The notes under the pieces: generated by a model | What the model was told of the DNA's origin: nothing | Databases searched by the model: none | What the model saw: the letters and a program-made list of their open reading frames with translations, nothing else | Shown here: piece after piece, positions 8,108-63,818 of the stretch | Position numbering within the stretch: the first letter of the stretch is position 1 | How the letters are laid out: every line of letters begins with the position of its first letter | NCBI RefSeq assembly: GCF_041381155.1 | Contig: NC_091147.1 | Span: forward strand, 10,872,837 to 10,936,836 | From: Argopecten irradians | Taxonomy: Eukaryota > Mollusca > Bivalvia > Pectinida > Pectinidae | Direction: 5' to 3' | DNA length: 64,000 nucleotides | Program-made: the position numbers and the translations under genes

Positions 8108-8711
8108 ATGGAGAGGATATCGGTGCTTATTATGGGTCATAGTTTCGTGAGACGTTTAGAAGGTCAGATGTCAGGGTCGTGGTATAACCTTGGTTTTGAT
8201 GAGTCATTAAGGCGATCCATTGTTGTGGTCGGGGTGGCGGTAAAGTAGGTCACCTTCTCCAGTCTGATATGTCTCGAGCTCTCGCGCGACATCGACCCGC
8301 TGTAGTAGTGTTACAGATAGGTGGCAATGACCTTGATTCACCTTTGTGCGAGGATCTTTCTGGGCGATTGGCTAGAGATATATTTTCGATCGCATCATGG
8401 ATGGTCAGTGGATTTGGGGTGGCCAGTGTTTGTGTTATGGAACTCATGTATAGGTATAAGACCCGTCACGCACCAGTGGACAAGTATAATAGTGCTGTGG
8501 ATGTGGTGAATGCTAATTTACGGACATTGTGTGCGGACTCTAGTGATTGTTTTTTCTGGCGACATAAGGGATTAAAGACTGGGATATTCTCGTGTCTGAG
8601 CCAAGATGGCGTCCATCTTTCGAGGAAAGGGTCTCGCAAGTATATATTCTCTCGGTGCGTGGGGCTGTACTGAAGGGCAAGTCATTGAGCGCTTCGCGGA
8701 GTGCCATATAA
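8108..8711 (+). pseudogene. SGNH hydrolase-like ORF of Ngaro copy 2 (broken)
   Basis: This is the same coding region as the intact version at 15824-16426. The conserved blocks of SGNH/GDSL hydrolases are recognisable: the nucleophile block GHSF, the GGND block, and a C-terminal DGVH block carrying the Asp and His. It carries one or two breaks. It lies directly after the A1 repeat and upstream of the minisatellite and gag. SGNH hydrolase ORFs are known in some Ngaro elements, where an esterase-like role has been suggested but the substrate is unknown. Confidence 0.8.
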
Positions 8712-9159
8712 GGTAAGCGTGCCCTCATTAACATAAATTATGCGGGACGGCACTTCCGCCCAGGTCATGTATCGGTTACTCTCGTCTATTAATATCATTG
8801 TATGATTAACTTCAATTTATCACAATCTGAGACTTATTAAAAGGTTGAGTGTTATATAACTTTATATATTAACAATGACATTCTTTAGTTGTTTAAAGTT
8901 CAAGGTTAAGTTATGTGCAGTTTGTTTACGTCACATGTCGTCTATATATACATTGTATTGCACGGGTCAAGGTTACTACATAGAAATTCTTTGTTTACGT
9001 TGGAGTGTTAGCTTGTTTAGCATTCAATAGGTTACGGTCTAGCGGTCACGGTCAATTTTACTTCTCTCGCTCTCCTGAGTAAATATTTGGAATATTGTTG
9101 TTTTCCCCTTTGACATAGATTGTGATTTGTGTTTCGATTTGAAATGATTTTAGTTAATT

Positions 9160-9645
9160 TTTAAGTATGTACAGGTGAATGGTGAGATAGGTAAATGTGG
9201 AGTACATCTAAGGTGTGTACAATTAAATATTGCCTTACATCATAGGTATGTACAGGTAAACTGAGTACATCTAAGGTGTGTACAATTAAATATTGCCTTA
9301 CATCATAGGTATGTAAAGGTAAACTGAGTACATCTAAGGTGTGTACAATTAAATATTGCCTTACTCATCATAGGTATGTACAGGTAAACTGAGTACATCT
9401 AAGGTGTGTACAATTAAATATTGCCTTACATCATAGGTATGTACAGGTAAACTGAGTACATCTAAGGTGTGTACAATTAAATACTGCCTTACATCTCAGG
9501 TATGTACAGGTGATCATGAATGGCGAGTACATCTAAAGGTGTACAACTTAATATTGCCTTACATCACAGGTATGTAAGGTGAATGTTGATTACATCTCAT
9601 GATCAGGTGTGTACAATTATATAAATATTTTGTCTTACATCATAG
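9160..9645. repeat. 63-bp minisatellite of Ngaro copy 2
   Basis: About six tandem units of 63 bp, the outer ones degenerate. Each holds GTACATCTAAGGTGTGTACA and GGTATGTACAGGTAAACTGA. The array lies between hydrolase and gag. Every unit contains splice-like words (an AG followed by GTATGT and another AG followed by GTAAAC). Copy 3 has about one more unit. Confidence 0.85.
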
Positions 9646-9948
9646 GTATGTATAGGTATAAATCATTGAATTTGCAATTTTTAACAATATGTCTATGTAT
9701 TGAGTACCAACAAAAAGGTACCACCATATATAGTACTGATTACATTACCAAACAGGTTGGTAATTGGGTGTTTGGTTAATGCATAAAGCACCTATCTTAA
9801 TATGATATAAGGGATACATATTGCAGATTTCAACTCTTACCCAAGGTGGTTTCGAGTAGTAATATGTATCGGGTGTAATATAGGAAATATTCACAATCAT
9901 ATCAAGTTTGGAACAAAGGTTTTTCTTTATTTATCACTTATTTCAGAT

Positions 9949-11314
9949 ATGGGTCCAATAAGACGCCTACCAAGGCGACAGGCAGCCCTAAACAATAGGG
10001 ATGTCAGAGTTCATGAGAGCCAACAGGACACTGTGGAACCAAACTCAACTGTAAATGAATCAAATTCTGGACAGTCACAATTTCCTACTGCAAGAGAAAT
10101 AGCATCGGAATTAATGCAGCAAATGTTGGAAAAGGGTGTGGCAACGGTGTTGCCTGGTGCCACATTGCCTTCATTTCATACAGCCCAGAGTAGAGCACCA
10201 CCTTCGGCCGCACTGGGGGCACCACCTGTGGTACCAACTGCTGCGACATCATCATCAGCTGCTATCGATGCACCACCTGTGGTACCACCTACTACACCAC
10301 CTTCGGTAGTCCAAAGTGCTCCAGTTGTACCAATGCCTACGATGCCTCCATCGGCTGCCTTTGGGGGCACCACTTGTGGTACCAATTGCAACATCATCTC
10401 CTCCCGCAACCCAGCTGTCTGCAACACCTGTAGTACAATTGCAGGACGAGACTGTTAATTTGGTAGTTTCGCCACCTTGTAGTATCCAGCCACCATTACA
10501 GTCTGTTGTTAACAACATGACAGGTGAGACTAATAATGTGTCACCTTACAGCAGCATCTCCTTACCTCTGGGGCTAAACTTAGATACAAAAATTGTGTCA
10601 AAAATTCATAGCCATGAATTTGTTGACTTTGGGAATTTGCTTTTACCGGCAACAAAAACAAAAGAATGCCAACTACGGCTTCAAGGAACCGAAATTTCTG
10701 TCGTTCCAAAACAAAAGCATTTTCAAATTCGAACCATTGAACAATGGCTTCAAGCTTTTCATATTTTTACATCAGTGTACATCAAGAGCCATGCTCACCG
10801 AATAGCTAGTCTACTAAAATATGCAGACACTATTCAAACACTTGCCCGGAGGTCAGGATTTGCTGCTGCAATCTTTTATGATTCACAGTTTCGGTTACTC
10901 ATGCAACACAATAGTAATATGGCATGGGACATAATCAACCAGGAGTTGTATTTACATGCCCTGGCTATAAGTTTGAAACCTGTTCAGAGACAGGTGCCCT
11001 TTCCATCAACCCCAGCCCAACCATATGGTAATGGAAACAAAATTAAAGGTCGGTGCTGGGAATTCATGCAAACCGGTTCATGCAACTATGGGTCACAGTG
11101 CAGGTTCCTTCATGTCTGTGCCAAATGTGGGGGTAACCACCACGTCAGACAATGTAGGGTGCAGGGCAACAAACACCAAAACAAATCAGCCATTAACCCA
11201 AATAATGGGACTTCACCAAACACTCAGGGCAACACCGGGACCTCCCAAACAAACACCTCGGGCAGACAAAACGCCTCAAACAATCCCAGGGGTCGTTCGG
11301 GAAACAGTTCATAA
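9949..11314 (+). pseudogene. Gag-like zinc-finger ORF of Ngaro copy 2 (about one break)
   Basis: The product begins MGPIRRLPRR and has a long low-complexity Pro/Ala/Thr/Val-rich N-terminal half with repeated APPVVP-type words. A conserved central region without recognised motif follows, and then a C-terminal zinc-binding part: a CCCH-type finger (C-WEFMQTGS-C-NYGSQ-C-RFL-H) followed at once by a CCHC-like knuckle (CAKCGGNHHVRQC). The tail is Asn/Gln/Thr-rich. This layout fits the structural (Gag-like) protein of DIRS/Ngaro elements that packages element RNA. A splice-acceptor-like tract ends just before the ATG. It looks broken about once; copy 3 is open throughout. Confidence 0.8.
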
Positions 11315-12881
11315 CCTTCCTACGCCAGTAAAGTTTGATATATTAAAACAGTATTTGGGAGGGTATGACTCTGATAGATTGATGAGCTTACAAAAAGGTT
11401 TTGAAAAGGGATTTTCATTACAACATCAGGGTGAAAGAAGCTTTCGTGAATCTAGAAACCTCAAATCAGCAGAACAAAATCCTGTTATTCTGAAACAGAA
11501 AATTGACAATGAAGTATCACTAGGTAGGATCGCGGGGCCTTATGATTCTCCTCCATTCACAAATTTTCAGGTATCTCCTTTGGGTTTAGTTCCTAAAAAA
11601 GAGAAAAATTAGTATAGGCTTATACATCACTTATCCTACCCTAAGGGATCATCAATAAATGATGGGATTTCTCCTGAAGATTCATCGGTTCAATATCAGT
11701 CAATATCAGATGCTATTGGTTTGGTTAAATATTTTGGGACTGGGACATTACTTGCCAAAACTGATATTGAGAATGCCTTTCGTATTCTTCCCATATCCCC
11801 GAATGATTACGAACTCTTGGGTATGAAAATGGGTGGGAAATATTACTTTGACAAAGTTCTTCCGATGGGCTGTTCTATATCCTGTAACCTTTTTGAACAA
11901 CTCAGCACAGCTTTGCAATGGTCTATGTCCAACCATTTTCAAGCTGCAGGCGTAGTGCATGTACTAGATGATTTTTTATTTGCCGGTCCCCCAGATTCGG
12001 ATAAATGTAAAAATGATTTAGTGTCATTCCTTGCATTATGTCAAAGGGTAGGTATACCCATCAAACATACCAAAACAGTACAGCCTACAACTGTCATAAC
12101 CTTTTTGGGAGTTGAAATCGATACAGTTCAAATGGAGGCACGTTTACCACCCGATAAAGTTGAGAAAATTAATTCACTTTTGTCAGCTTTTGGTTCACGC
12201 AAAAAAGTTACACTTAAAGAACTCCAATCTCTGATAGGCCTCCTCAATTTTGCATGCTGTGTAGTACTTCCAGGGCGCCCTTTTTTACGCCGCCTCATCA
12301 ACCTTACCAAAGGAATAACTAAACCATACTTTCGCATTCGTTTGAATACAGAAGCAAGGTTAGACATTCGTGCTTGGCAGGAATTCATAGCATCCTTCAA
12401 TGGGGTTTCTCTTATCTTGGCAGATAGATGGGAAACATCAAATCATCTTCATTTCTATACTGATGCTAGTGGACTAGGTTTTGGGGCCGTTTTTAACGAT
12501 AAGTGGTTTTATGGGGAATGGCCGTCAAACATGACCTGTCATCATATAACTATTAAAGAACTTTTCCCTATAGTCATAGCAGTAGAAATATGGGGCGACG
12601 ATTTGAAGAACAAATGCATACTGTTTCACAGTGACAATGCAGCTGTTGTTTCTATATTGAATAAACATACAAGCAAGGACTCAGTTGTCATGAAACTTGT
12701 ACGTAGACTAGTTGTTAAAACATTACAGCTGAATATCCTATTCTGTACAGAGCATATAATGGGTAAAAGAAATATCTTGGCAGATTTTTTGTCTCGATTG
12801 CAGGTTCACGCATTCAAAGAAATAGCTCCACACATGACGAAAGACCCTGTACCAGTCCCAGCTCATCTGTTGCACATTTGA
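11025..12881 (+). pseudogene. Reverse transcriptase-RNase H ORF of Ngaro copy 2 (about one break)
   Basis: The frame differs from gag and overlaps its 3' end. After a linker come reverse transcriptase blocks, including LAKTDIENAFRILPI and the catalytic box VLDDFLFAG (a V-L-D-D variant of YxDD), typical of DIRS-type elements. An RNase H domain follows, with FYTDASGLGFG, an ITIKEL block and HSDNAAVVSIL, ending with GKRNILADFLSR. The ORF's stop overlaps the start of the recombinase ORF by four bases (ATGA), which suggests coupled translation. There is no integrase or protease domain. About one break is present. Confidence 0.85.
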
Positions 12882-13804
12882 TTACAATAGTGCAACATCT
12901 CCTGATGACTGCAATAGCATCCCAAACCAGAAAAAGCTACATGAGGGCTTTCGGTCAACTTCAAGATTTCGCTAGTACACATTTTTATTCTATAGCTTGC
13001 TTACCAACTAAAGTGGACCTGCTGGTCTACTTCATTGCTCATATGTATAGTGAGAACAAGTCTTCAGCAACCATTAAGTCTTATGTTGCTGCGGTAGGGT
13101 ACATTAATAAGTTAGCAGGCTATGCAGACCCAGCCCAGTCCTTTATTATCAAAAAGATTTTGGCAGCCATTCAAAGAGGAACATATCAACCAGACTCTCG
13201 TTTACCTATTACTCCAGATATTTTGCGGAAATTGGTTGGGGCATTACCTAAAACATTATTACCACAATACCAACAGTGTATGCTACGAGCAATGTATCTT
13301 TTAGCTTTCCATGCCTTCCTGCGCGTAGGTGAAATGACAGTTAATACGTTTAGTTGTCATACATTGCAATATAACGACATAGCCATTATTCCAGATTGTC
13401 TTGGCCATCCAATCAAAATAGAAATTACTTTTAGATCCTTTAAAAGCAATTGTAATATACGTCCAATTGTCCTATCCATAGAGAAAAAGCAAGATACTTC
13501 CATCTGCCCAGTAATGGCATTAGTCCAATTTGTGACCATACGAGGCACTAATCCTGGTCACCTTTTTTCTTTTCCAAACAATCAACCAGTGTCTTATCAG
13601 TTTTTTACTACATGTCTGAAACAAACGCTATGTGCAGCTGGCATAGATTCTAAAGGCTATACTAGCCACAGTTTTCGAATCGGGGCTGCTAGTACGGCTG
13701 CAGCTCAAGGGGTACCAGATGAGGACATTCAACACATGGGTAGATGGAAGTCACTGGCTTTTAAACGCTATATACGTTTACCAACATTTTTTGACAATGC
13801 ATAG
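12878..13804 (+). CDS. Tyrosine recombinase of Ngaro copy 2
   Basis: A 308-residue product that replaces the DDE integrase of ordinary LTR elements. The N-terminal half is a SAM-like core-binding domain (QTRKSYMRAFGQL, VDLLVYFIAHMY). The C-terminal half carries the catalytic tetrad of the phage-integrase/XerD fold: Arg in FLRVGEMT, His and Arg in HSFRIGAAS, His in DIQHMGRWKS and Tyr in FKRYIRLP. It overlaps the RT ORF by four bases. The enzyme is expected to integrate circular element DNA by site-specific recombination without target-site duplication, which fits the clean B2/A1 junctions between copies. The ORF looks whole. Confidence 0.9.
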   Translation: MITIVQHLLMTAIASQTRKSYMRAFGQLQDFASTHFYSIACLPTKVDLLVYFIAHMYSENKSSATIKSYVAAVGYINKLAGYADPAQSFIIKKILAAIQRGTYQPDSRLPITPDILRKLVGALPKTLLPQYQQCMLRAMYLLAFHAFLRVGEMTVNTFSCHTLQYNDIAIIPDCLGHPIKIEITFRSFKSNCNIRPIVLSIEKKQDTSICPVMALVQFVTIRGTNPGHLFSFPNNQPVSYQFFTTCLKQTLCAAGIDSKGYTSHSFRIGAASTAAAQGVPDEDIQHMGRWKSLAFKRYIRLPTFFDNA

Positions 13805-15553: not shown

Positions 15554-15823
15554 TGATAATTAAAATAACATTTTAATGTACTTTATACATGCTAGGAGTT
15601 GTCGTTAAACGTAATCGTAAAGTAAGCTTTAAGTGTAAAAGTCATTTTAAATTTCGCGGTTTTTTCGGTGATACAGAAGGGGGAGATGGGTAGGAGATTT
15701 ATAATAGTCATTACGCATGCGCATCAGAGCTGCGACAGAGAAACAAAGAAAAGAAGGACGTTTTTCAAGGTCAGTCAGTTTTTTGATTTGTTACGTTTTT
15801 AACAAATTGAATTGAAAGAAAAT

Positions 15824-16426
15824 ATGGAGAGGATATCGGTGCTTATTATGGGTCATAGTTTCGTGAGACGTTTAGAAGGTCAGATGTCAGGGTCGTGGTA
15901 TAACCTTGGTTTTGATGAGTCATTAATGGCGATCCATTGTTGTGGTCGGGGTGGCGGTAAAGTAGGTCACCTTCTCCAGTCTGATATGTCTCGAGCTCTC
16001 GGGCGACATCGACCCGCTGTAGTAGTGTTACAGATAGGTGGCAATGACCTTGATTCACCTTTGTGCGAGGATCTTTCTGGGCGATTGGCTAGAGATATAT
16101 TTTCGATCGCATCATGGATGGTCAGTGGATTTGGGGTGGCCAGTGTTTGTGTTATGCAACTCATGTATAGGTCTAAGACCCGTCACGCACCAGTGGACAA
16201 GTATAATAGTGCTGTGGATATGGTGAATGCTAATTTACGGACAATGTGTGCGGACTCTAGTGATTGTTTTTTCTGGCGACATAAGGGATTAAAGACTGGG
16301 ATATTCTCGTGTCTGAGCCAAGATGGCGTCCATCTTTCGAGGAAAGGGTCTCGCAAGTATATTCTCTCGGTGCGTGGGGCTGTACTGAAGGGCAAGTCAT
16401 TGAGCGCTTCGCGGAGTGCCATATAA
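15824..16426 (+). CDS. SGNH hydrolase-like ORF of Ngaro copy 3
   Basis: An open frame of 200 codons from the ATG at 15824, just after the A1 repeat. The product begins MERISVLIMGHSFVRRL, with the nucleophile Ser in the GHSF block near residue 12. The oxyanion block GGNDL lies near the middle, and DGVHLS near residue 175 supplies the Asp and His. There is no signal peptide or membrane segment. SGNH/GDSL hydrolases cleave ester bonds, and Ngaro elements of animals are one of the known mobile-element carriers. A GGTAAG donor-like word follows the stop, and an acceptor-like tract lies before gag, so the ~1.3-kb region with the minisatellite could be an intron. The substrate is unknown. The ORF looks whole. 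Confidence 0.87.
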   Translation: MERISVLIMGHSFVRRLEGQMSGSWYNLGFDESLMAIHCCGRGGGKVGHLLQSDMSRALGRHRPAVVVLQIGGNDLDSPLCEDLSGRLARDIFSIASWMVSGFGVASVCVMQLMYRSKTRHAPVDKYNSAVDMVNANLRTMCADSSDCFFWRHKGLKTGIFSCLSQDGVHLSRKGSRKYILSVRGAVLKGKSLSASRSAI

Positions 16427-16879
16427 GGTAAGCGTGCCCTCATTAACATAAATTATGCGGGACGGCACTTCCGCCCAGGTCATGTATCGGTTACTCTCGT
16501 CTATTAATATCATTGTATGATTAACTTCAATTTATCACAATCTGAGACTTATTAAAAGGTTGAGTGTTATATAACTTTATATATTAACAATGACATTCTT
16601 TAGTTGTTTAAAGTTCAAGGTTAAGTTATGTGCAGTTTGTTTACGTCACATGTCGTCTATATATACATTGTATTGCACGGGTCAAGGTTACTACATAGAA
16701 ATTCATTGTTTACGTTGGAGTGTTAGCTTGTTTAGCATTCAATAGGTTACGGTCTAGCGGTCACGGTCAATTTTACTTCTCTCGCTCTCCTAAGTAAATA
16801 TTTGGAACATTGTTGTTTTCCCCTTTGACATAGATTGTGATTTGTGTTACGATTTGAAATGATTTTAGTTAATTCTTAA

Positions 16880-17425
16880 GTATGTACAGGTGAATGGTGA
16901 GATAGGTAAATGTGGAGTACATCTAAGGTGTGTACAATTAAATATTGCCTTACATCATAGGTATGTACAGGTAAACTGAGTACATCTAAGGTGTGTACAA
17001 TTAAATATTGCCTTACATCATAGGTATGTACAGGTAAACTGAGTACATCTAAGGTGTGTACAATTAAATATTGCCTTACATCATAGGTATGTACAGGTAA
17101 ACTGAGTACATCTAAGGTGTGTACAATTAAATATTGCCTTACATCATAGGTATGTACAGGTAAACTGAGTACATCTAAGGTGTGTACAATTAAATATTGC
17201 CTTACATCATAGGTATGTACAGGTAAACTGAGTACATCTAAGGTGTGTACAATTAAATATTGCCTTACATCTCAGGTATGTACAGGTGATCATGAATGGC
17301 GAGTACATCTAAAGGTTTACAACTTAATATTGCCTTACATCACAGGTATGTACAGGTGAATGTTGATTACATCTCATGATCAGGTGTGTACAATTATATA
17401 AATATTTTGTCTTACATCATAGGTA
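16880..17425. repeat. 63-bp minisatellite of Ngaro copy 3
   Basis: About seven units of 63 bp, five or six of them near identical, followed by two degenerate ones. The unit contains self-complementary TGTACA words and splice-like AG/GTATGT and AG/GTAAAC words. The array sits in the leader between hydrolase and gag. Confidence 0.88.
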
Positions 17426-17724
17426 TGTATAGGTATAAATCATTGAATTTGCAATTTTTAACAATATGTCTATGTATTGAGTACCAACAAAAAGGTACCA
17501 CCATATATAGTACTGATTACATTACCAAACAGGTTGGTAATTGGGTGCTTGGTTAATGCATAAAGCACCTATCTTAATATGATATAAGGGATACATATTG
17601 CAGATTTCAACTCTTACCCAAGGTGGTTTCGAGTAGTAATATGTATCGGGTGTATTATAGGAAATATTCACAATCATATCAAGTTTGGAACAAAGGTTTT
17701 TCTTTATTTATCACTTATTTCAGA

Positions 17725-19092
17725 TATGGGTCCAATAAGACGCCTACCAAGGCGACAGGCAGCCCTAAAAATAGGGCTGTCAGAGTTCATGAGAGCCAAC
17801 AGGACACTGTGGAACCAAACTCAACTGTAAATGAATCAAATTCTGGACAGTCACAATTTCCTACTGCAAGAGAAATAGCATCGGAATTAATGCAGCAAAT
17901 GTTGGAAAAGGGTGTGGCAACGGTGTTGCCTGGAGCCACATTGCCTTCATTACATACAGCCCAGAGTAGAGCACCACCTTCGGCCGCACTGGGGGCACCA
18001 CCACCTGTGGTACCAACTGCTGCGACATCATCATCAGCTGCTATCGATGCACCACCTGTGGTACCACCTACTACACCACCTTCGGTAGTCCAAAGTGCTC
18101 CAGTTGTACCAATGCCTACGATGCCTCCATCGGCTGCCTTGGGGGCACCACTTGTGGTACCAATTGCTACATCATCTCCTCCCGCAACCCAGCTGTCTGC
18201 AACACCTGTAGTACAATTGCAGGACGAGACTGTTAATTTGGTAGTTTCGCCACCTTGTAGTATCCAGCCACCATTACAGTCTGTTGTTAACAACATGACA
18301 GGTGAGACTAATAATGTGTCACCTTACAGCAGCATCTCCTTACCTCTTGGGCTAAACTTAGATACAAAAATTGTGTCAAAAATTCATAGCCATGAATTTG
18401 TTGACTTTGGGAATTTGCTTTTACCGGCAACAAAAACAAAAGAATGCCAACTACGGCTTCAAGGAACCGAAATTTCTGTCGTTCCAAAACAAAAGCATTT
18501 TCAAATTCGAACCATTGAACAATGGCTTCAAGCTTTTCATATTTTTACATCAGTGTACATCAAGAGCCATGCTCACCGAATAGCTAGTCTACTAAAATAT
18601 GCAGACACTATTCAAACACTTGCCCGCAGGTCAGGATTTGCTGCTGCAATCTTTTATGATTCACAGTTTCGGTTACTCATGCAACACAATAGTAATATGG
18701 CATGGGACGTAATCAACCAGGAGTTGTATTTACATGCCCTGGCTATAAGTTTGAAACCTGTTCAGAGACAGGTGCCCTTTCCATCAACCCCAGCCCAACC
18801 ATATGGTAATGGAAACGAAATTAAAGGTCGGTGCTGGGAATTCATGCAAACCGGTTCATGCAACTATGGGTCACAGTGCAGGTTCCTTCATGTCTGTGCC
18901 AAATGTGGGGGTAACCACCACGTCAGACAATGTAGGGTGCAGGGCAACAAACACCAAAACAAATCAGCCATTAACCCAAATAATGAGACTTCACCAAACA
19001 CTCAGGGCAACACCGGGACCTCCCAAACAAACACCTCGGGCAGACAAAACGCCTCAAACAATCCCAGGGGTCGTTCGGGAAACAGTTCATAA
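17725..19092 (+). CDS. Gag-like zinc-finger ORF of Ngaro copy 3
   Basis: This is the open counterpart of 9949-11314. The frame is open from 17623 through 19092. It has the Pro/Ala/Val-rich N-terminal region, the conserved central domain (around residues AFHIFTSVYIKSHAHRIASL), the CCCH finger plus CCHC-like knuckle, and an Asn/Gln/Thr-rich tail. The N-terminal frame differs from copy 2 over the first ~50 bases, so the natural start is uncertain. Its likely role is the RNA-binding structural protein of the element. Confidence 0.8.
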   Translation, partial: YGSNKTPTKATGSPKNRAVRVHESQQDTVEPNSTVNESNSGQSQFPTAREIASELMQQMLEKGVATVLPGATLPSLHTAQSRAPPSAALGAPPPVVPTAATSSSAAIDAPPVVPPTTPPSVVQSAPVVPMPTMPPSAALGAPLVVPIATSSPPATQLSATPVVQLQDETVNLVVSPPCSIQPPLQSVVNNMTGETNNVSPYSSISLPLGLNLDTKIVSKIHSHEFVDFGNLLLPATKTKECQLRLQGTEISVVPKQKHFQIRTIEQWLQAFHIFTSVYIKSHAHRIASLLKYADTIQTLARRSGFAAAIFYDSQFRLLMQHNSNMAWDVINQELYLHALAISLKPVQRQVPFPSTPAQPYGNGNEIKGRCWEFMQTGSCNYGSQCRFLHVCAKCGGNHHVRQCRVQGNKHQNKSAINPNNETSPNTQGNTGTSQTNTSGRQNASNNPRGRSGNSS

Positions 19093-20670
19093 CCTTCCTA
19101 CGCCAGTAAAGTTTGATATATTAAAACAGTATTTGGGAGGGTATGACTCTGATAGATTGATGAGCTTACAAAAAGGTTTTGAACAGGGATTTTCATTACA
19201 ACATCAGGGTGAAAGAAGTTTTCGTGAATCTAGAAACCTCAAATCAGCAGAACAAAATCCTGTTATTCTGAAACAGAAAAATTGACAAAGAAGTATCACT
19301 AGGTAGGATCGCAGGGCCTTATGATTCTCCTCCATTCACAAATTTTCAGGTATCTCCTTTGGGTTTAGTTCCTAAAAAAGAGAAAAAATAGTATAGGCTT
19401 ATACATCACTTTTCCTACCCTAAGGGATCATCGATAAATGATGGGATTTCTCCTGAAGATTCATCAGTTCAATATCAGACAATATCAGATGCTATTGGTT
19501 TGGTTAAATATTTTGGGACTGGGACATTACTTGCCAAAACTGATATTGAGAATGCCTTTCGTATTCTTCCCATATCCCCGAATGATTACGAACTCTTGGG
19601 TATGAAAATGGGTGGGAAATATTACTTTGACAAAGTTCTTCCGATGGGCTGTTCTATATCCTGTAACCTTTTTGAACAACTCAGCACAGCTTTGCAATGG
19701 TCTAGGCCTATGTATGTCCAACCATTTTCAAGCTGCAGGAGTAGTGCATGTACTAGATGATTTTTTATTTGCCGGTCCCCCAGATTCGGATAAATGTAAA
19801 AATGATTTAGTGTCATTCCTTGCGTTATGTCAAAGGGTAGGTATACCCATCAAACATACCAAAACAGTACAGCCTACAACTGTCATAACCTTTTTGGGAG
19901 TTGAAATCGATACAGTTCAAATGGAGGCACGTTTACCACCCGATAAAGTTGAGAAAATTAATTCACTTTTGTCAGCTTTTGGTTCACGCAAAAAAGTTAC
20001 ACTTAAAGAACTCCAATCTCTGATAGGCCTCCTCAATTTTGCATGCTGTGTAGTACTTCCAGGGCGCCCTTTTTTACGCCGCCTCATCAACCTTACCAAA
20101 GGAATAACTAAACCATACTTTCGCATTCGTTTGAATACAGAAGCAAGGTTAGACATTCGTGCTTGGCAGGAATTCATAGCATCCTTCAATGGGGTTTCTC
20201 TTATCTTGGCAGTTAGATGGGAAACATCAAATCATCTTCATTTCTATACTGATGCTAGTGGACTAGGTTTTGGGGCCGTTTTTAACGATAAGTGGTTTTA
20301 TGGGGAATGGCCGTCAAACATGACCTGTCATCATATAACTATTAAAGAACTTTTCCCTATAGTCATAGCAGTAGAAATATGGGGCGACGATTTGAAGAAC
20401 AAATGCATACTGTTTCACAGTGACAATGCAGCTGTTGTTTCTATATTGAATAAACATACAAGCAAGGACTCAGTTGTCATGAAACTTGTACGTAGACTAG
20501 TTGTTAAAACATTACAGCTGAATATCCTATTCTGTGCAGAGCATATAATGGGTAAAAGAAATATCTTGGCAGATTTTTTGTCTCGATTGCAGGTTCACGC
20601 ATTCAAAGAAATAGCTCCACACATGACGAAAGACCCTGTACCAGTCCCAGCTCATCTGTTGCACATTTGA
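18803..20670 (+). pseudogene. Reverse transcriptase-RNase H region of Ngaro copy 3 (broken)
   Basis: The domains and order match copy 2: linker overlapping gag, reverse transcriptase with the VLDDFLFAG box, RNase H with FYTDASG and HSDNAAVV blocks, and ADFLSR at the end. It overlaps the recombinase start by four bases. It carries about two to three breaks and is otherwise nearly identical to copy 2, so it decayed recently. Confidence 0.85.
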
Positions 20671-21410
20671 TTACAATAGTGCAACATCTCCTGATGACTG
20701 CAATAGCATCCCAAACCAGAAAAAGCTACATGAGAGCTTTCGGTCAACTTCAAGATTTCGCTAGTACACATTTTAATTCTATAGCTTGCTTACCAACTAA
20801 AGTGGACCTGCTGGTCTACTTCATTGCTCATATGTATAGTGAGAACAAGTCTTCAGCAACCATTAAGTCTTATGTTGCTGCGGTAGGGTACATTAATAAA
20901 TTAGCAGGCTATGCAGACCCAGCCCAGTCCTTTATTATCAAAAAGATTTTGGCAGCCATTCAAAGAGGAACATATCAACCAGACTCTCGTTTACCTATTA
21001 CTCCAGATATTTTGCGGAAATTGGTTGGGGCATTACCTAAAACAGTATTACCACAATACCAACAGTGTATGCTACGAGCAATGTATCTTTTAGCTTTCCA
21101 TGCCTTCCTGCGCGTAGGTGAAATGACAGTTAATACGTTTAGTTGTCATACATTGCAATATAACGACATAGCCATTATTCCAGATTGTCTTGGCCATCCA
21201 ATCAAAATAGAAATTACTTTTAGATCCTTTAAAAGCAATTGTAATATACGTCCAATTGTCCTATCCATAGAGAAAAAGCAAGATACTTCCATCTGCCCAG
21301 TAATGGCATTAGTCCAATTTGTGACTATACGAGGCACTAATCCTGGTCACCTTTTTTCTTTTCCAAACAATCAACCAGTGTCTTATCAGTTTTGTACTCT
21401 ATCATATTAG
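20667..21410 (+). pseudogene. Tyrosine recombinase of Ngaro copy 3 (partial)
   Basis: Near-identical to the start of the copy 2 recombinase. It contains the core-binding domain and the first catalytic Arg (FLRVGEMT). The part of the catalytic domain that would carry the remaining tetrad residues is not present, so this copy cannot be an active recombinase. Confidence 0.85.
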
Positions 21411-55403: not shown

Positions 55404-57451
55404 CTATAAGTCGGCTTGCATGTCCTCGTTCTTTCCCCTTTCTTCATATTGTCGTATTTTCGGTTCCAGGAACAGAAGGATTCCCCCAAACAGCATGAAA
55501 CCGCCCATGAGGTAGAAAGCGAGGTCGTACGAGAGGAAGTTATCACGTATAGCACCTACGGATAAACAATACACAAAGAAATAAAATAAAATTAAAACTA
55601 TCATTACTGATTTTGCAGTTCCATGCCTCATACACAATGTAACTGAACATTTGTATTGCTTGGGAAATTAAATTAAACAGCTATTAAATCTTCAAATTAT
55701 AAACATTAATAGAAGATTTTAAAATGTACTTATTGAATAATAACATTTTGTACTAATATGAAACTTACAGTCAGACTCACTCTAATCTATTTATCTTCTT
55801 ACATGCCTCTTGTAATTGTCCACTATTCACATAAATTAAAGACTTTATTGAATGAAAACATAAGAGAATATTTAAATGATAGCGATTATATGTGTATACT
55901 TTGCAAATGAACTCATATTTCACATTAATACATGTACATTTACAAAGGAATCTGTCATTAGCTTATAGTGGTGCCTTCAAAGCTTCTTATATATATTTAC
56001 ATATATTATGCATTTCACTCATTTGAGGATAAAGTCAAATTTTATTTTGCTATTATCACTTGATGGAATTGTACCATGAAATCAAAGACTAATAAAAACT
56101 TCTTGCGTAATTTTAATGTCAAATGAGTTGTTTACAGACTTACCGACAACAGGATTGAAGACGCAGATGGACACACCATGTGATAACATGGTGATAGCTA
56201 ACCCCTGGGATATATTGGCGATCCCAACAAAGTCTACCACTAACACTGCAAGCATAGCGAAAAACGTCCCATGAAAAGTTCCATAAATCACTGAGTAAAC
56301 AGCAAGCGACCAGAACTGGGTGCAGTATGGTATCAATATTGTTGCAATTGCCGTAATGATTAAGGAGGCTGCGACAAGGAAATGGCGTTTGATCTTTTTA
56401 TTATCGGCTATGAAGACTAGAATTAATTTGTTAAGTAAGTCCGTACAGCCAATAATGGTCAGTAATTGAGTGTTCTGTTGGTCAGTCAGGCCCACATCCC
56501 TTGCATGATGTGGTATGTATGTCACCACTAGCGCGAGACCAGACACGGAACACATTGAACTTGTCAAGTTCATTAAGAATAATTTGTTTTTCAGTAGTCT
56601 TAAATCTAGAACATTTCCTAGAACATTTCTGCATGTAAGTTTGTGACACCTAGAGACGCATGTATCCTCTTCATACACGCTGTCGTTATCATCATCGTCT
56701 GATGGCACAGAAAGGTGGATGTTACCAAGGGAGCCTAAAGCGTCTCCCAGACCCTGAGATAACTCTGTGCTTTTATGAAATCTGGATCTCAAGGCATAGC
56801 TTTCGGTTGTTACTCCAGAATCCGAAACCGTCCGCCGTCGTCCTGCCTGTAACATCTGATACTTGCGCTCCTGCCATGCTTTATTTTGTCCATTTGAGTG
56901 ACCCAAGACTAGACGGTCATAAGACTGTCCGACTGAAGCTGCAGTGTCCTTCACTGGTTTGTATATAACGTTATTAAAGTGTCCGTTTCTAACTGTTTTG
57001 CTTTCACTCTTTGTCACTTTCTTTTGTATTCGTTGTCGTTTAAGCGGACGAAGAAGTGCCCCTGTGACCATGATGTTTAGAAGGAGTGCCGCTGTGATCC
57101 AAAGTGTCCCCTGTAATAAGTACTCGTCCAGTAGTAATCGGAACAGATTCGGCAGGACGAGGCCGCCAGTACTTCCTCCAAAATTCATAAAAGCGTTGGC
57201 CATTCCCCGTTTCTTGTCGAAGTACTTTCCCAACATCACTGTGGCAGGTCCGTGGGCAAACGCCGCAGCAGATCCTATTGTTACATGTATAAAGCAAAAC
57301 ATCAAGCGTGAGTCGGGAATATTCAATGTCAATTCTAACGACTGTGATTACATCATTTAACCATATAATTAAACAGTTGGTAGATTACTTGTGAGAATAG
57401 AGTGACAGATCATAAATTTATTTATTAAATTATTTATTTATTTATTTATCT

Positions 57452-57488
<37 letters not shown>

Positions 57489-60400
57489 TCTATCTATCTA
57501 TCTATTTACTAATTCATTGATTCATTCGTTCAGCCTGTCAATCAATCATTAATTCAGTCGCAGTTCATACATCCATTTATTAATGCATTTATGTTTGTTT
57601 ATTCATTGAAGTATTAGCTCGTATATACCATTTCTCAATATTAGTTTGGGTGAATACGTTTAATTAATATAAATACCAAATACCAGTCCAATCGTCAATA
57701 TCAGGAGTTCTGCTTTCCTAACAAAACTGCTGAGGAAGTAGCTGAAAAAGGCCAGCAGTCCACCAATCATTACTATGGAACGGTGGGCATCTAATATCTC
57801 AGACATCGTCAGGGTGAAAAGAGCTACAAAACCAAAACAACGGTAATTATCAGTGTGCAACAAAAAATTTAAACGATTCAGTAAAATCCCAAAGTAACCA
57901 CAGATGCAACACAAATTACGCTGTAATATTTACATCTTCACTGCAGTCTCACTATGTAACCTTACCAAGCGCATTTGGAAGTCATATAGACAATAAAATT
58001 CAATCGCTTATTATGACGTCATTATAATTGTGACGTCACAATTGTCGTGCCAACGATCATGGAAAACGGCTGTTTAAATGGCTTTTCCATTCTAGATGTT
58101 AATGAATGATTAATTCACTATAAATGCAAAGTTCCTTGGCATTTCAACAAAAAAATGTTACGCAATGTAAATATAAGCATTGAACGTTTTCAGGTGGACA
58201 GAGGAAAAATCCAACTTGAAGCGCTAACGCGCTTCATGGAATTTGTCTCTGTCCAGTCGGCATTCATATTGGCTATAAATGCCAAGTGAAAGACGTTCAA
58301 TGCTTAAATGGTTCATGTTTTACAAGCGTAGTCATTGATTTGTGAATATGTTAATGCTACAAAATAATGACCATTTCAAAATCTCATTGAAATATCAATA
58401 AGCAGCAATACAATAAACAGATACGACGCAAAATACAAAACAGATCACTGTTACAATCAACAGGACAAAACATGTCAACACCACAGTTACGTTAGTCGGT
58501 GTATAACTAATAATATCAAATGAGAACAATATTAGTCGGTGTATAACTAATAATATCAAATGAGAACAATATTAGTCGGTGTATAACTAATAATATTAAA
58601 TGAGAACAATATAAGTCAGTGAATAAGTAATAGTACAACATGAAAGTTACCTAGGATACAAAACAGATCCATATCAAAGTTACCAAAAATACCAAACATG
58701 TTTTCATACCATTCAAAGTTATAAACGATAGGAATTGGATCAACGTGCAGACAGAGTTACTGCTGGTACAAAACACATTTTTCTATTACCGTCAAAGTTA
58801 CAAGCTATACTAAAGCGATCAGTGTATCAATAAGAGTTTTCAAAAAGAGTGAAAACAATAAATATATACAAGAAACAAAGAATACAAAAATGCGATCGTA
58901 ACGTCAGAGTTTTCAGACGAAGTGAGTGATTTAGTCACATAGTACTGACCTCAAAATGAAAAGCAAACTGCAAGGCAGGTAACTCTCTAATATGCATTTA
59001 CAGGGTAAAATACCTTTTGTCATAAAACATACGAACTGATATAAGTCGAATCTTATCGTTAAGACATCAATGAAATATAGGCTACCATCTAAACAAACAA
59101 AGCATTGGACAAAAATCCATTCTTAAGATCACAGCTCGCACGCACAGGATAACTCTTAGCATCATCTCCCGCATATATTTAGATAGATATTTATGTTTAG
59201 AAAGACTGAATAGAAAAACTACGACCAGTGTCAGGATTGACAAAATAACAAAGATCACCAAGGATAAAGTCAAACGAAATAATTAAAGTCATTATCAAGA
59301 TCACATTTCACACCGACAGAATTTGGCCGCAGTATAACACCATCTCTGATGGACATATGGCAATAATGTTGATATTACATGATGATTTACATCGGTTACT
59401 TACTGAGAACACTAAACACCAGCGTTTGTTCTGATTGCTTACTTACAAAGAACACTAAACACCAGCGTTTGTACTGATTGGTTACTTACTAAGAACACTA
59501 AACATCAGCGTTTGTACTGATTGGTTACTTACTAAGAACACTAAACACCAGCGTTTGTACTGAGTGGTTACTTACTGAGAACACTAAACATCAGCGTCTG
59601 TACTGAATGGTCACTTACTGAGAACACTAAACACCAGCGTTTATACTCAGTGGTCACTTACTGAGAACACTAAACACCAGCGTTTGTACTGAATGGTCAC
59701 TTACTGAGAACACTAAACACCAGCGTTTTACTCGTGGTTACTTACTGAGAACACTAAACACCAGCGTTTATACTCAGTGGTTACTTACTGAGAACACTAA
59801 ACACCAGCGTTTGCACTGATTGGTTACTGAGAACACTAAACACCAGCGTTTGTACTGATTGGTTACTTACTGAGAACACTAAACATCAGCGTCTGTACTG
59901 AGTTGTGACTTACCGAGAACACTAAACACCAGCGTTTGTACTGAGTGGTTACTTACTGAGAACACTAAACACCAGCGTTTGTACTGAGTTGGTTCTTACT
60001 GAGAACACTAAACACCAGCGTTTGTACTGATTGGTTACTTACTGAGAACACTAAACACCAGCGTTTGTACTGAGTGGTTACTTACTGAGAACACTAAACA
60101 CCAGCGTTTGTACTGAGTGGTTACTTACTGAGAACACTAAACACCAGCGTTTGTACTGATTGGTTACTTACTGAGAACACTAAACACCAGCGTTTGCACT
60201 GAGTGGTTACTTACTGAGAACACTAAACACCAGCGTTTGTACTGATATTGGTTACTTACTGAGAACACTAAACACCAGCGTTTGTACTGATTGGTTACTT
60301 ACTGAGAACTTAAACTGAGTACTGAACACTGAGAACACTAAACACCAGCGTTTGTACTGATTGGTTACTGAGAACACTAAACACCAGCGTTGTACTGATT

Positions 60401-63400
60401 GGTTTACTGAGAACACTAAACACCAGCGTTTGTACTGATTGGTTACTTACTGAGAACACTAAACACCAGCGTTTGTACTGATTGTTACTTACGAGAACAC
60501 TAAACACCAGCGTTTGTACTGATGGTTACTTACTGAGAACACTAAACACCAGCGTTTGTACTGATTGGTTACTTACTGAGAACACTAAACACCAGCGTTT
60601 GTACTGATTGGTTACTTACTGAGAACACTAAACACACAGCGTTTGTACTGATTGGTTACTTACTGAGAACACTAAACACCAGCGTTTGTACTGAGTGGTT
60701 ACTTACTGAGAACACTAAACACCAGCGTTTGTACTGATTGGTTACTTACTGAGAACACTAAACACCAGCGTTTGTACTGATTGGTTACTTACTGAGAACA
60801 CTAAACACCAGCGTTTGTACTGATTGGTTACTTACTGAGAACACTAAACACCAGCGTTTGTACTGAGAGTTGGTTTCTTACTGAGAACACTAAACACCAG
60901 CGTTTGTACTGATTGGTTACTTACTGAGAACACTAAACACCAGCGTTTGTACTGATTGGTTACTTACTGAGAACACTAAACACCAGCGTTTGTACTGATT
61001 GGTTAGTGAGAACACTAAACACCAGCGTTTGTACTGATTGGTTACTTACTGAGAACACTAAACACCAGCGTTTGTACTGAGTGGTTACTTACTGAGAACA
61101 CTAAACACCAGCGTTTGTACTGAGTGGTTACTTACTGAGAACACTAAACACCAGCGTTTGTACTGATGGTTACTTACGAGAACACTAAACACCAGCGTTT
61201 GTACTGATGGTTACTTACTGAGAACACTAAACACCAGCGTTTGTACTGATGGTTACTTACTGAGAACACTAAACACCAGCGTTTGTACTGATTGCTTACT
61301 TACTGAGAACACTAAAAATCAGCGTTTGTACTGATTGGTTACTTACTGAGAACACTAAACACCAGCGTTTGTACTGAGTGGTTACTTACTGAGAACACTA
61401 AACACCAGCGTTTGTACTGAGTGGTTACTTACTGAGAACACTAAACACCAGCGTTTGTACTGAATGGTTACTTACTGAGAACACTAAACACCAGCGTTTG
61501 TACTGATTGGTTACTTACTGAGAACACTAAACACCAGCGTTTGTACTGATTGGTTACTTACTGAGAACACTAAACACCAGCGTTTGTACTGAGTGGTTAC
61601 TTACTGAGAACACTAAACACCAGCGTTTGTACTGATTGGTTACTTACTGAGAACACTAAACACCAGCGTTTGTACTGATTGGTTACTTACTGAGAACACT
61701 AAACACCAGCGTTTGTACTGAGTGGTTACTTACTGAGAACACTAAACACCAGCGTTTGTACTGATTGGTTACTTACTGAGAACACTAAACACCAGCGTTT
61801 GTACTGAGTGGTTACTTACTGAGAACACTAAACACCAGCGTTTGTACTGATAAGGACAAGGACAAAATCGAAGCGTTTGTATTCAGTGTCACTAGGAACT
61901 CCACGAAGAATATCCCAAACGATCTGAGGAATCCCACTATCATAAAGCTCTCTATAGTGGCACCTGGAAGGATGAAATATAATATATCATATTCAGAAAA
62001 TGATGCATGGTCGATTGAGTATGATATGATATACAGAAATTGATGGATATTCAACAAAACGTAAGATATCTTATACAGAAAATTATAGAAATGCAATGCA
62101 AGGGACGTAACTCCCAGTTGTACAGTGTATAGATCTAATTCAGACTAAATTCGTCAACAAGTTTTGGGTTTGGGTAATTGAAATTTAATTTGGTGTCGCT
62201 ATTTAAATTGTATCAAGGGGTTTTAGTTAGGCGAGTATGCTACTTCATGTATACATAGTACAGTTGATCTCATTGTGACCAATTATAAATCGAGTTACGA
62301 TTATGCTAATGATTATATATATTTATCAGTGGCGTAGGAAGATGAAACGTAATGGGGGGGCAAAGGTCCTCAATATTTCGTAACCCCCCCCCCTCGCGCA
62401 CCCCGCACCCACAGGAGATACTTGATATACTTTTTTTTCATATATCATTACATATAATCCTTATACACATCTATAGACAGTGGCGTCGCTAACAGGAAAT
62501 TAATGAATACGCAAATAAGCGTGCGACTTTGGGGGTTCCGGGGTGTCCACTGGAAAAAATATTACGATTTAGAATGATTGTGATGAGTTTTACGATGCAT
62601 TTTGATGATTTTGCGAGCGCCGAAGGCGCGAGATTTTGGTGTTCGGGGGACGGGAGGTCTCCCCCGGGAAAAATATGTACGATTTAGAATGGCAGAGATC
62701 AGTTTTACGATGCATTTTGTTGATTTTGAGAGATTCGCTGGCGCGAGATTTTGGTGTTTGGGGGTCTGGGGGGTCTCCCCCGGGAAAAAAATTACGCTTT
62801 AGAATGGCTGAGATGAATTTTACGATGCATTTTGTTGAATTTGCGAGCGCCGAAGGCGCGAGATTTTGGTGTTGGGGGGGATTTAAGATTTAGAATGGCT
62901 GAGATGAGTTTTTTTGATGAATTTTGAAGGTGTGAGATTTTCTTGTTTGGGGGGTCTTGTGTTCTCCCCCGGAAAAAAATTTCGATTTAGAATGGCTCAG
63001 ATGAGTTTTACGATGTATTTTGATGAATTTGCAAGCGCCGAAGGCGCGAGAATTTGTTTGGGGGGGGGGGGGGTCCGGGGGTCTCCCTCGAGAAAAAAAT
63101 TACGATTTGGAATGGCTGATATGAGTTTTACAATGTATTTTGATGATTTTAAAGCTTTTTACGGTAATTTTTCGATTTAAAGTTACCCGCATTACTTGTG
63201 AGTTTCGTCATACCATTTGGTAACCCAGCTCGATCTGAACATACCGGATTCACACCATCGGCACATTGTTGTGTAACTCAAAATAATAATGAATTGAAGA
63301 TATATAAACAAATTAATATTTTTTTAAGAAACATTTTTTTTAAATAGTATAATCCATTGGTGGACATTTTTAGTGTAGTTCGTGTGTATTGAATTTTCAT

Positions 63401-63818
63401 TATTAAAGGTTTGAACATTAAATGCTTGAACGTTTTAGGAAACGCGCCGCGCAGCGGAAAATTTTCTAAAATGAAGTGCAAATATGTACAGGAGGACCCT
63501 TTTTTCTTTCAAATGTGCATTTTAGAACATTTCACTCGGCGAAAAATGGGGGGGGGGGGGCAAAAAGACATGTTTGCCTCCCCGTCCTGGGGAACGGGGG
63601 GGGGGGGCAATCCCCCCCCCCCCCCCCCCCCCCCCCCCGCCGTCCTACGCCCCTGTATATATACATAAGTTTGGTAGATGCTTCCTCAGATTACCTATAA
63701 GTACCATCCACGCCCATCCCTGGTCTGTTTGTTTATTAGGGTCGTCTTCTTCCCTTTCCTCTTCATCCTCGTCTTTTTCTTTCTCCTCGCTTTCTTTCTC
63801 TTCGCCACTTCCACCCAT
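55404..63818 (-). CDS. Monocarboxylate transporter-like protein B (SLC16/MFS), 565 aa, 5 coding exons
   Basis: Exons in reading order are 63818-63695, 61963-61820, 57823-57677, 57274-56144 and 55555-55404, all joined in phase 1. Exons 2 and 3 have exactly the lengths of gene A (144 and 147 nt). The product is 565 residues. An acidic N-terminal tail (about residues 5-28, Glu/Lys/Asp runs) precedes the TM1 signature TDQGWAWMVLI. The TM5 signature GKYFDKKRGM lies near residues 155-163. A longer cytoplasmic loop (about 215-363) contains Ser- and Asp-rich stretches. The TM8 pair is Asp417-Lys421 (TDLLNK), so Lys replaces the usual Arg. Exon 2 ends inside the terminal unit of a 43-bp minisatellite that supplies its splice donor. 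Intron 3 has a GTATTT donor, which is weaker than the others. It is a tandem paralogue of gene A. The substrate is not predictable. Confidence 0.85.
57415..57507. repeat. (TTTA)n/(ATCT)n microsatellite in intron 3 of transporter gene B
   Basis: Runs of TTTA units with occasional AATTA breaks, followed by four to five ATCT units. Confidence 0.95.
58172..58310. repeat. Foldback repeat in intron 2 of transporter gene B
   Basis: TAAGCATTGAACGT opens it, and ACGTTCAATGCTTA closes it. Inner arms GGACAGAG and CTCTGTCC are also inverted. The centre is GAAGCGCTAACGCGCTTC, a perfect stem-loop. A secondary hairpin (GGCATT..AATGCC) interrupts the right arm. Confidence 0.75.
58493..58632. repeat. 40-bp tandem repeat, ~3.5 units
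   Basis: The unit holds TCGGTGTATAACTAATAATA followed by TCAAATGAGAACAATATTAG. The first two units are identical and the last one is degenerate. Confidence 0.9.
59393..61850 (-). repeat. 43-bp minisatellite (~57 units) built from exon 2 end plus splice donor
   Basis: The + strand unit is GGTTACTTACTGAGAACACT followed by AAACACCAGCGTTTGTACTGATT. The total of 2458 bp gives about 57 units, most near identical, a few shortened by 4-8 bp. On the - strand each unit reads CAGTACAAACGCTGGTGTTT, then AGTGTTCTCA/GTAAGTAACC. The array's rightmost unit is continuous with transporter gene B exon 2 and encodes its last residues (SVQTLVFSVLS) up to the donor at 61819. The position and phase of that donor match exon 2 of gene A exactly. 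The array therefore arose by amplification of the gene's own exon-intron border into the intron. Confidence 0.9.
62327..63655. repeat. Composite repeat with G/C tracts and ~100-120-bp tandem units, possible DNA transposon
   Basis: CAGTGGCGTAGG at 62327 and the near reverse complement CCTACGCCCCTG at 63655 face outward, with AT-rich flanks. A second similar start (CAGTGGCGTCGCTAAC) is at about 62475. Inside, about six tandem units (62565-63150) repeat TTTAGAATGGCTGAGATGAG, a GCGAGCGCCGAAGGCGCGAG palindrome and a G-run followed by TCTCCCCCGGG. Long G and C homopolymers (63550-63640) may be poorly sequenced. It occupies most of intron 1 of transporter gene B. Confidence 0.6.

Follow-up and report, generated by a model that had tools for sequence, protein, structure and literature searches.

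In human IFI6 (6-16, G1P3) a minisatellite reportedly extends from the end of exon 2 into the intron, with an in-frame unit of 12 nucleotides (nt) in about 26 copies, and leaky use of the units is said to add four residues per unit. Here we describe a related arrangement in Argopecten irradians, within a 64,000-nt stretch of DNA (C14:10872837-10936836 of the 845.8-Mb genome) referred to as the window, where a minisatellite at the exon 2 end of a monocarboxylate-transporter-like gene (gene B) repeats the coding end of that exon together with its splice donor. The human array "provides multiple splice donor sites", in the words of the title of Turri, Cuin and Porter (1995), and two of its downstream units act as donors, giving three mRNAs, according to a second source (PMC4526556). 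IFI6 is the direct precedent, with minisatellite units supplying several splice donors to one exon, and the claim made in an earlier, sequence-only reading of the window, that it knew of no described case built exactly like the gene B array, does not hold as a claim of no precedent. The start reported for IFI6, from an exon end into the intron, is also that of the gene B array, which carries 31 nt of exon 2 in unit 1 and GTAAGT in 51 of its 58 units. The in-frame unit reported for IFI6, perhaps not a defining trait, has no counterpart in gene B, where the unit is 43 nt and 50 distal donors lead to a stop. The gene B array thus differs in having a longer unit that breaks the frame and includes 31 nt of coding sequence derived from the exon, as well as in the built-in stop and in size.

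The polyubiquitin gene UBC and other arrays of dual-specific splice sites are more distant relatives than IFI6. In UBC, according to PMC10809524, AGGT serves as both donor and acceptor between in-frame 228-nt coding units, and the paper ties the tolerance of growing repeats to the splicing of their units. The likeness to gene B lies in a splice signal in every tandem unit and many equivalent splice choices; unlike UBC, the gene B array contains 0 AGGT in gene sense and repeats donors alone, and is thus not dual-specific. In the potato RNA-dependent RNA polymerase gene (RdRp), an intron was gained by tandem duplication across an intron-exon boundary (PMC4974935). The duplication spans the boundary and the copy is partly spliced out, as in gene B, but the potato case is one acceptor-side duplication that made a new intron, whereas gene B has dozens of donor-side copies that lengthen an old one. 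An intronic variable number tandem repeat (VNTR) is also found in ABCA7, for which length is reported to correlate with exon skipping and expression (PMC5954066); this link to splicing and expression is known for ABCA7. Earthworm metallothionein is not a parallel, and no further exon-end donor array was found in a literature search outside which most subscription journals lay.

Tandem Repeats Finder (TRF) placed the array at 59394-61851 with a period of 43 and 58.0 copies, and listed a period of 129 as well. By wrap-around alignment, in the one assembly, there are 58 units in gene sense, from 61850 down to 59394, with the consensus TCAGTACAAACGCTGGTGTTTAGTGTTCTCA/GTAAGTAACCAA (slash at the exon-donor boundary). 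Head-to-tail units within the 10-100 bp range and in many copies make this a minisatellite. The motif A/GTAAGT is intact in 47 of the 58 units, while CAGTAAGT is read at 45 places and CTCAGTAAGTAACC at 41; the site that varies most is the final base of the linker (37 A, 16 C, 3 T and 2 gaps). Unit 1 consists of 31 exonic nt (61850-61820), the end of exon 2, followed by the donor of that exon. A genome query made of two units gave at least 31 matches, all inside the array, and the unit was found at no other locus. The sequence-only reading, which had claimed about 57 tandem copies of the last ~30 nt of exon 2 plus a mostly intact donor and had expected the array to be absent from unrelated loci, was therefore close on each point. 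Intron 2 also holds a 40-bp repeat of 3.5 copies (58492-58632), and intron 1 a 115-bp repeat (62555-62879) and a run of 27 C (63612-63638).

When joined, exons 1-4 of gene B form an open frame of 515 codons. A 483-residue query from these exons matched 13 distinct PDB sequences in all at E <=0.001. Monocarboxylate transporter 1 (MCT1) was matched in two stretches at E 4.2e-29, and MCT2, 8 and 10 were also recovered. Exon 4 alone matched Pfam MFS_1 at E 1.3e-17, and the joined exon 2-3 piece matched no Pfam family at E up to 1. Judged by this similarity, which extends over most of the protein, gene B is a transporter gene of the SLC16/MCT type. A whole-genome search with the exon 2 protein at E up to 10 returned 11 matches including the query itself. 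Seven of the ten others are SLC16-like by eye (L010-L016, L013 being the neighbouring gene A) and individually weak, at E 0.0016 to 2.7; the other three (L017-L019) looked unrelated and were dropped. In all seven SLC16-like exons, ungapped alignment places a GT exactly at the donor position of gene B, in the same phase. Because the seven paralogue exons share this GT, the sequence comparison gives good support to an exon 2 end at 61820, and with it to the view of the earlier reading that the unit nearest the exon is the real exon end. Exon 2 might instead end elsewhere, with the array an unrelated intronic or exonic repeat of mere resemblance, and the lack of a Pfam family for the exon 2-3 piece would suit such a view; given the seven paralogue exons and a join to exon 3 that reads as MCT protein, we find it scarcely credible.

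The unit 1 donor is the only GTAAGT of the array that keeps the reading frame. All 50 others lead to a stop at codon 92, after SVLSK, since the stop is built into the donor itself, a phase-1 exon followed by GTAAGTAA reading xGT AAG TAA; the early stop had been anticipated for any distal donor. Donor energies were predicted as pairing with the 5' end of this genome's U1 small nuclear RNA (snRNA; ATACTTACCTG, L080). The predicted energy is -7.2 kcal/mol for 44 of the 51 array donors and -6.4 to -9.3 for the other 7, so that the description of the donors as equal in strength was largely right, the 7 apart. With -6.8 kcal/mol for the exon 1 donor, -4.0 to -9.1 for the 7 paralogue donors and -15.2 for the full consensus, the array donors are of average predicted strength. 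The U1 snRNA genes themselves lie in a tandem array (G000 C7:7837784-7877915), mostly spaced at ~1.18 kb.

Divergence from the consensus is unevenly spread along the array. Changes are present in 29 of the 58 units, and under random placement twelve clean units would come first with P 5.8e-5. Counted in blocks of 15 units from the exon, substitutions number 3, 2, 4 and 24 (the last block having 13 units), and they climb with unit number (Spearman 0.58, P 1.9e-6). Because units 1-12 are clean and substitutions rise distally, the exon-proximal end appears to be the young, or most often renewed, end of the array. Column counts were made on 56 units, omitting the rearranged units 36 and 37. Substitutions affect 4 of 392 cells in the donor columns vs 19 of 1680 in the exon-derived columns (Fisher P 1.0), and A/GTAAGT is altered or lost in 10 of the 56 units; neither preservation nor purging of donors by selection is visible in the column substitution counts. 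Deletions removed 18 nucleotides from the donor, 2 from the 30 exon-derived columns and 6 from the linker, and those in the donor are probably due to slippage in AGTAAGTAAC.

Table 1. Coordinates of gene B, its donor minisatellite and a second array (window positions unless a contig is named).
Feature	Position	Strand	Remark
Gene B exon 1, coding part, 124 nt	63695..63818	-	end phase 1; donor TATAG/gtaatc
Gene B exon 2, 144 nt	61820..61963	-	acceptor ccttccag/GTGCC; end phase 1; final 31 nt within array unit 1
Gene B exon 3, 147 nt	57677..57823	-	
Gene B exon 4	56144..57274	-	bulk of MFS transporter domain
Probable last coding exon, GAIRDNF...MQADL + stop	55404..55556 (about)	-	frame translation by eye, start not fixed
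Minisatellite, 58 units of ~43 bp, exon end + donor	59394..61850	-	TRF and wrap-around alignment
Units 1-12	61335..61850	-	no consensus change apart from variable linker base
Units 46-58, distal 13 units	59394..59944	-	24 of 33 counted substitutions
Unit 1 GTAAGT	61814..61819	-	sole frame-keeping one among 51 GTAAGT donors
Second exon-end-seeded donor minisatellite (L090), unit ~35 bp	C1:5519400-5520160		sepiapterin-reductase-like exon

Taken together, the data are consistent with an origin by tandem duplication across the exon 2/intron 2 junction of an SLC16-type gene, from which a minisatellite would have developed. Growth or renewal would since have taken place chiefly at the end near the exon, so that the coding and donor sequence of the exon was copied. 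On this account the donors look intact because recent copies would descend from a copy held intact by coding and splicing selection, and not because the array is functional. The spliceosome would use the first donor, at the normal distance of 144 nt from the exon 2 acceptor, with the remaining array removed within intron 2, and the array would be tolerated because this exon-proximal donor is the one used. We consider it probable that the array is such a neutral minisatellite, which was seeded at the exon end and is renewed from that side, and that splicing takes place at donor 1. Donors 2 and 3 are likely to see some leakage, with predicted exons of 187 and 230 nt; the leaked messages would meet the early stop and would be expected targets of nonsense-mediated decay. 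The IFI6 precedent, in which downstream units reportedly serve as donors, agrees with this reading. Several points weigh against it. The use of the first donor is deduced from the DNA sequence, and in classical competition experiments splicing can reportedly prefer, among identical donors, the one closest to the downstream acceptor, here unit 58. No trend is seen for indels (rho 0.12, P 0.36), and the gradient in substitutions could also come from gene conversion without growth. Units 2-12 show no visible decay, which may reflect a constraint near the exon. Moreover, 11 successive exon-derived columns are unchanged, an invariant stretch that was set aside as a candidate since such a run occurs in 8% of random placements. 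That the array is tolerated because the first donor wins, one of the options raised in the sequence-only reading, is nevertheless the best fit to the evidence, although its premise on donor use is an inferred one.

Instead of being neutral, the array might act as a length-tuned dampener, in which a fixed or regulated share of transcripts is spliced beyond donor 1, meets the SVLSK stop and enters nonsense-mediated decay, so that output would be set by the length of the array, possibly variable among alleles. The common stop at codon 92 of all 50 distal GTAAGT donors, lying in the donor itself, and the identical donor sequences of the proximal units are in keeping with such a device, as are the downstream units used in IFI6 and the correlation of VNTR length with exon skipping in ABCA7 (PMC5954066). 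The donor columns, however, show no extra constraint on substitutions and A/GTAAGT is lost or altered in 10 of 56 units, and we regard a dampener as unlikely. The donors have also been pictured as a decoy or landing array that gathers U1 small nuclear ribonucleoprotein and so delays splicing or suppresses premature polyadenylation in the 4-kb intron. As many as 51 of the 67 GTAAGT on the transcribed strand of the window lie in the array, and the 5' end of this genome's U1 is predicted to pair with them. The predicted pairing is moderate in comparison with the full consensus, the donors are again without constraint and no function need be assumed, all of which makes this a very improbable explanation. 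RNA from the five units nearest the exon does not fold better than its shuffles (z -0.53), of which 54 in 200 did equally well, and together with donor columns that are no better kept this leaves the decoy, splicing delay or regulator that had been suggested from the sequence without support.

Assembly of tandem arrays is difficult, only one assembly was used, and no second haplotype copy or close paralogue was seen, non-self exon 4 matches all being at <=49% identity. The length of 58 units, or the flawless proximal part, might accordingly be an artefact of collapse or false expansion. However, substitutions, deletions and linker variants give many units a signature of their own, a pattern not produced by a simple duplication error, and a 2.5-kb array is within long-read length; an artefact is therefore quite improbable. 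Overall, the array is not clearly a control device; most likely the gene tolerates it as a repeat of a rare type, for which one human gene provides the known example.

The genome was also screened for donor-bearing arrays, defined as three copies of MAGGTAAGT 18-48 nt apart, with the pattern read backwards and two scrambles as controls. The pattern gave 4810 matches vs 292 backwards and 851 and 736 for the scrambles, a ratio of 5.7 to 16.5 over the three control words; the single word occurs 32589 times vs 24971 backwards. The corresponding numbers are 1895 vs 306 for the CAGGTGAGT array pattern, 583 vs 41 for CAGGTAAGT at 24-32 spacing and 27277 vs 11110 for the weaker AGTAAGT array pattern. 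Since a long array contributes many hits, the hits are not independent of each other, and one array (C1:487315-493480) gives 84 of 100 MAGGTAAGT hits among the matches listed. Distinct arrays were hence counted by eye among the matches listed, giving 5 for MAGGTAAGT in C1:0-5.52 Mb (0.91 per Mb, 95% interval 0.29-2.11) and 12 for CAGGTGAGT in C1:0-71.1 Mb (0.17 per Mb). The first control gave 14 over C1-C4 (0.053 per Mb, the length of C3 being taken as the last listed position) and the second 10 over C1, C2 and part of C3 (0.056 per Mb). Arrays with the full donor consensus thus seem enriched several-fold, the MAGGTAAGT density coming from one small region. TRF was also applied to 152.6 kb in 46 loci, of which 40 surround transporter-like or dropped matches and 6 surround U1 genes, and returned 21 rows, several overlapping, with period >=10 and >=2.5 copies. 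Minisatellites are common in this genome, and the absence of GGTRAG or GTRAGT from the consensus of all 21 rows from these loci speaks against frequent donor arrays near such genes. Two similar retroelement-like copies in the window (8203-13804 and 15803-21410), with reverse transcriptase and recombinase-like frames by eye, each contain 63-bp tandem repeats.

The gene-sense start was seen in three of the 5 listed MAGGTAAGT arrays (L086, L087 and L090), and only L090 starts at an exon; the sequences of the other two (L088 and L089) did not reach the array start. No exon was present at either of the AGTAAGT arrays whose start was read (L050 and L054), and L053, with three copies only, was set aside. 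In L090 an open frame upstream of the array at C1:5520078 matches sepiapterin reductase over residues 12-63 of a 67-residue query (E 5.9e-11) and Pfam adh_short at E 0.0098, below the family cut-off. The frame runs to AAAG/GTTAGT at C1:5519973, and in the units that follow, the exon end, shortened by 14 nt, recurs together with GTAAGT. None of 2000 single-base shuffles reached the local match between the last 80 nt of the exon and the unit. The donor of the exon itself, GTTAGT, is predicted to be weaker (-8.3) than the GTAAGT of the next unit (-12.2). From its sequence, L090 is an exon-seeded donor array at a candidate exon whose start is not fixed and which may belong to a pseudogene. As to the other starts, L086 (C1:338080-338800) begins just past the palindrome AGGCCCATGGGCCT, which we take to recall a Helitron-like 3' end, and L087 (C1:493380-494300) forms with C1:487315-493480 a long 48-bp donor-bearing array with an unrelated minisatellite directly before it in gene sense.

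The gene B array is a natural setting in which to test the choice of the spliceosome between dozens of near-identical donors, of which the first alone gives protein. Exon-end donor arrays may be recurrent in this genome, in which few array starts were readable, and the second case at L090 and the several-fold excess of arrays with the full donor consensus hint at a class of this kind. A broader proposal, that minisatellites nucleate at the ends of coding exons, regrow from a master copy kept by selection and, through leaky stop-bearing donors, tie output to array length in many genes, is put forward tentatively and seems to us rather doubtful. If exon-end seeding does recur genome-wide, it would reveal a way in which introns grow from coding sequence, and would be a source of variation in gene output that depends on length.

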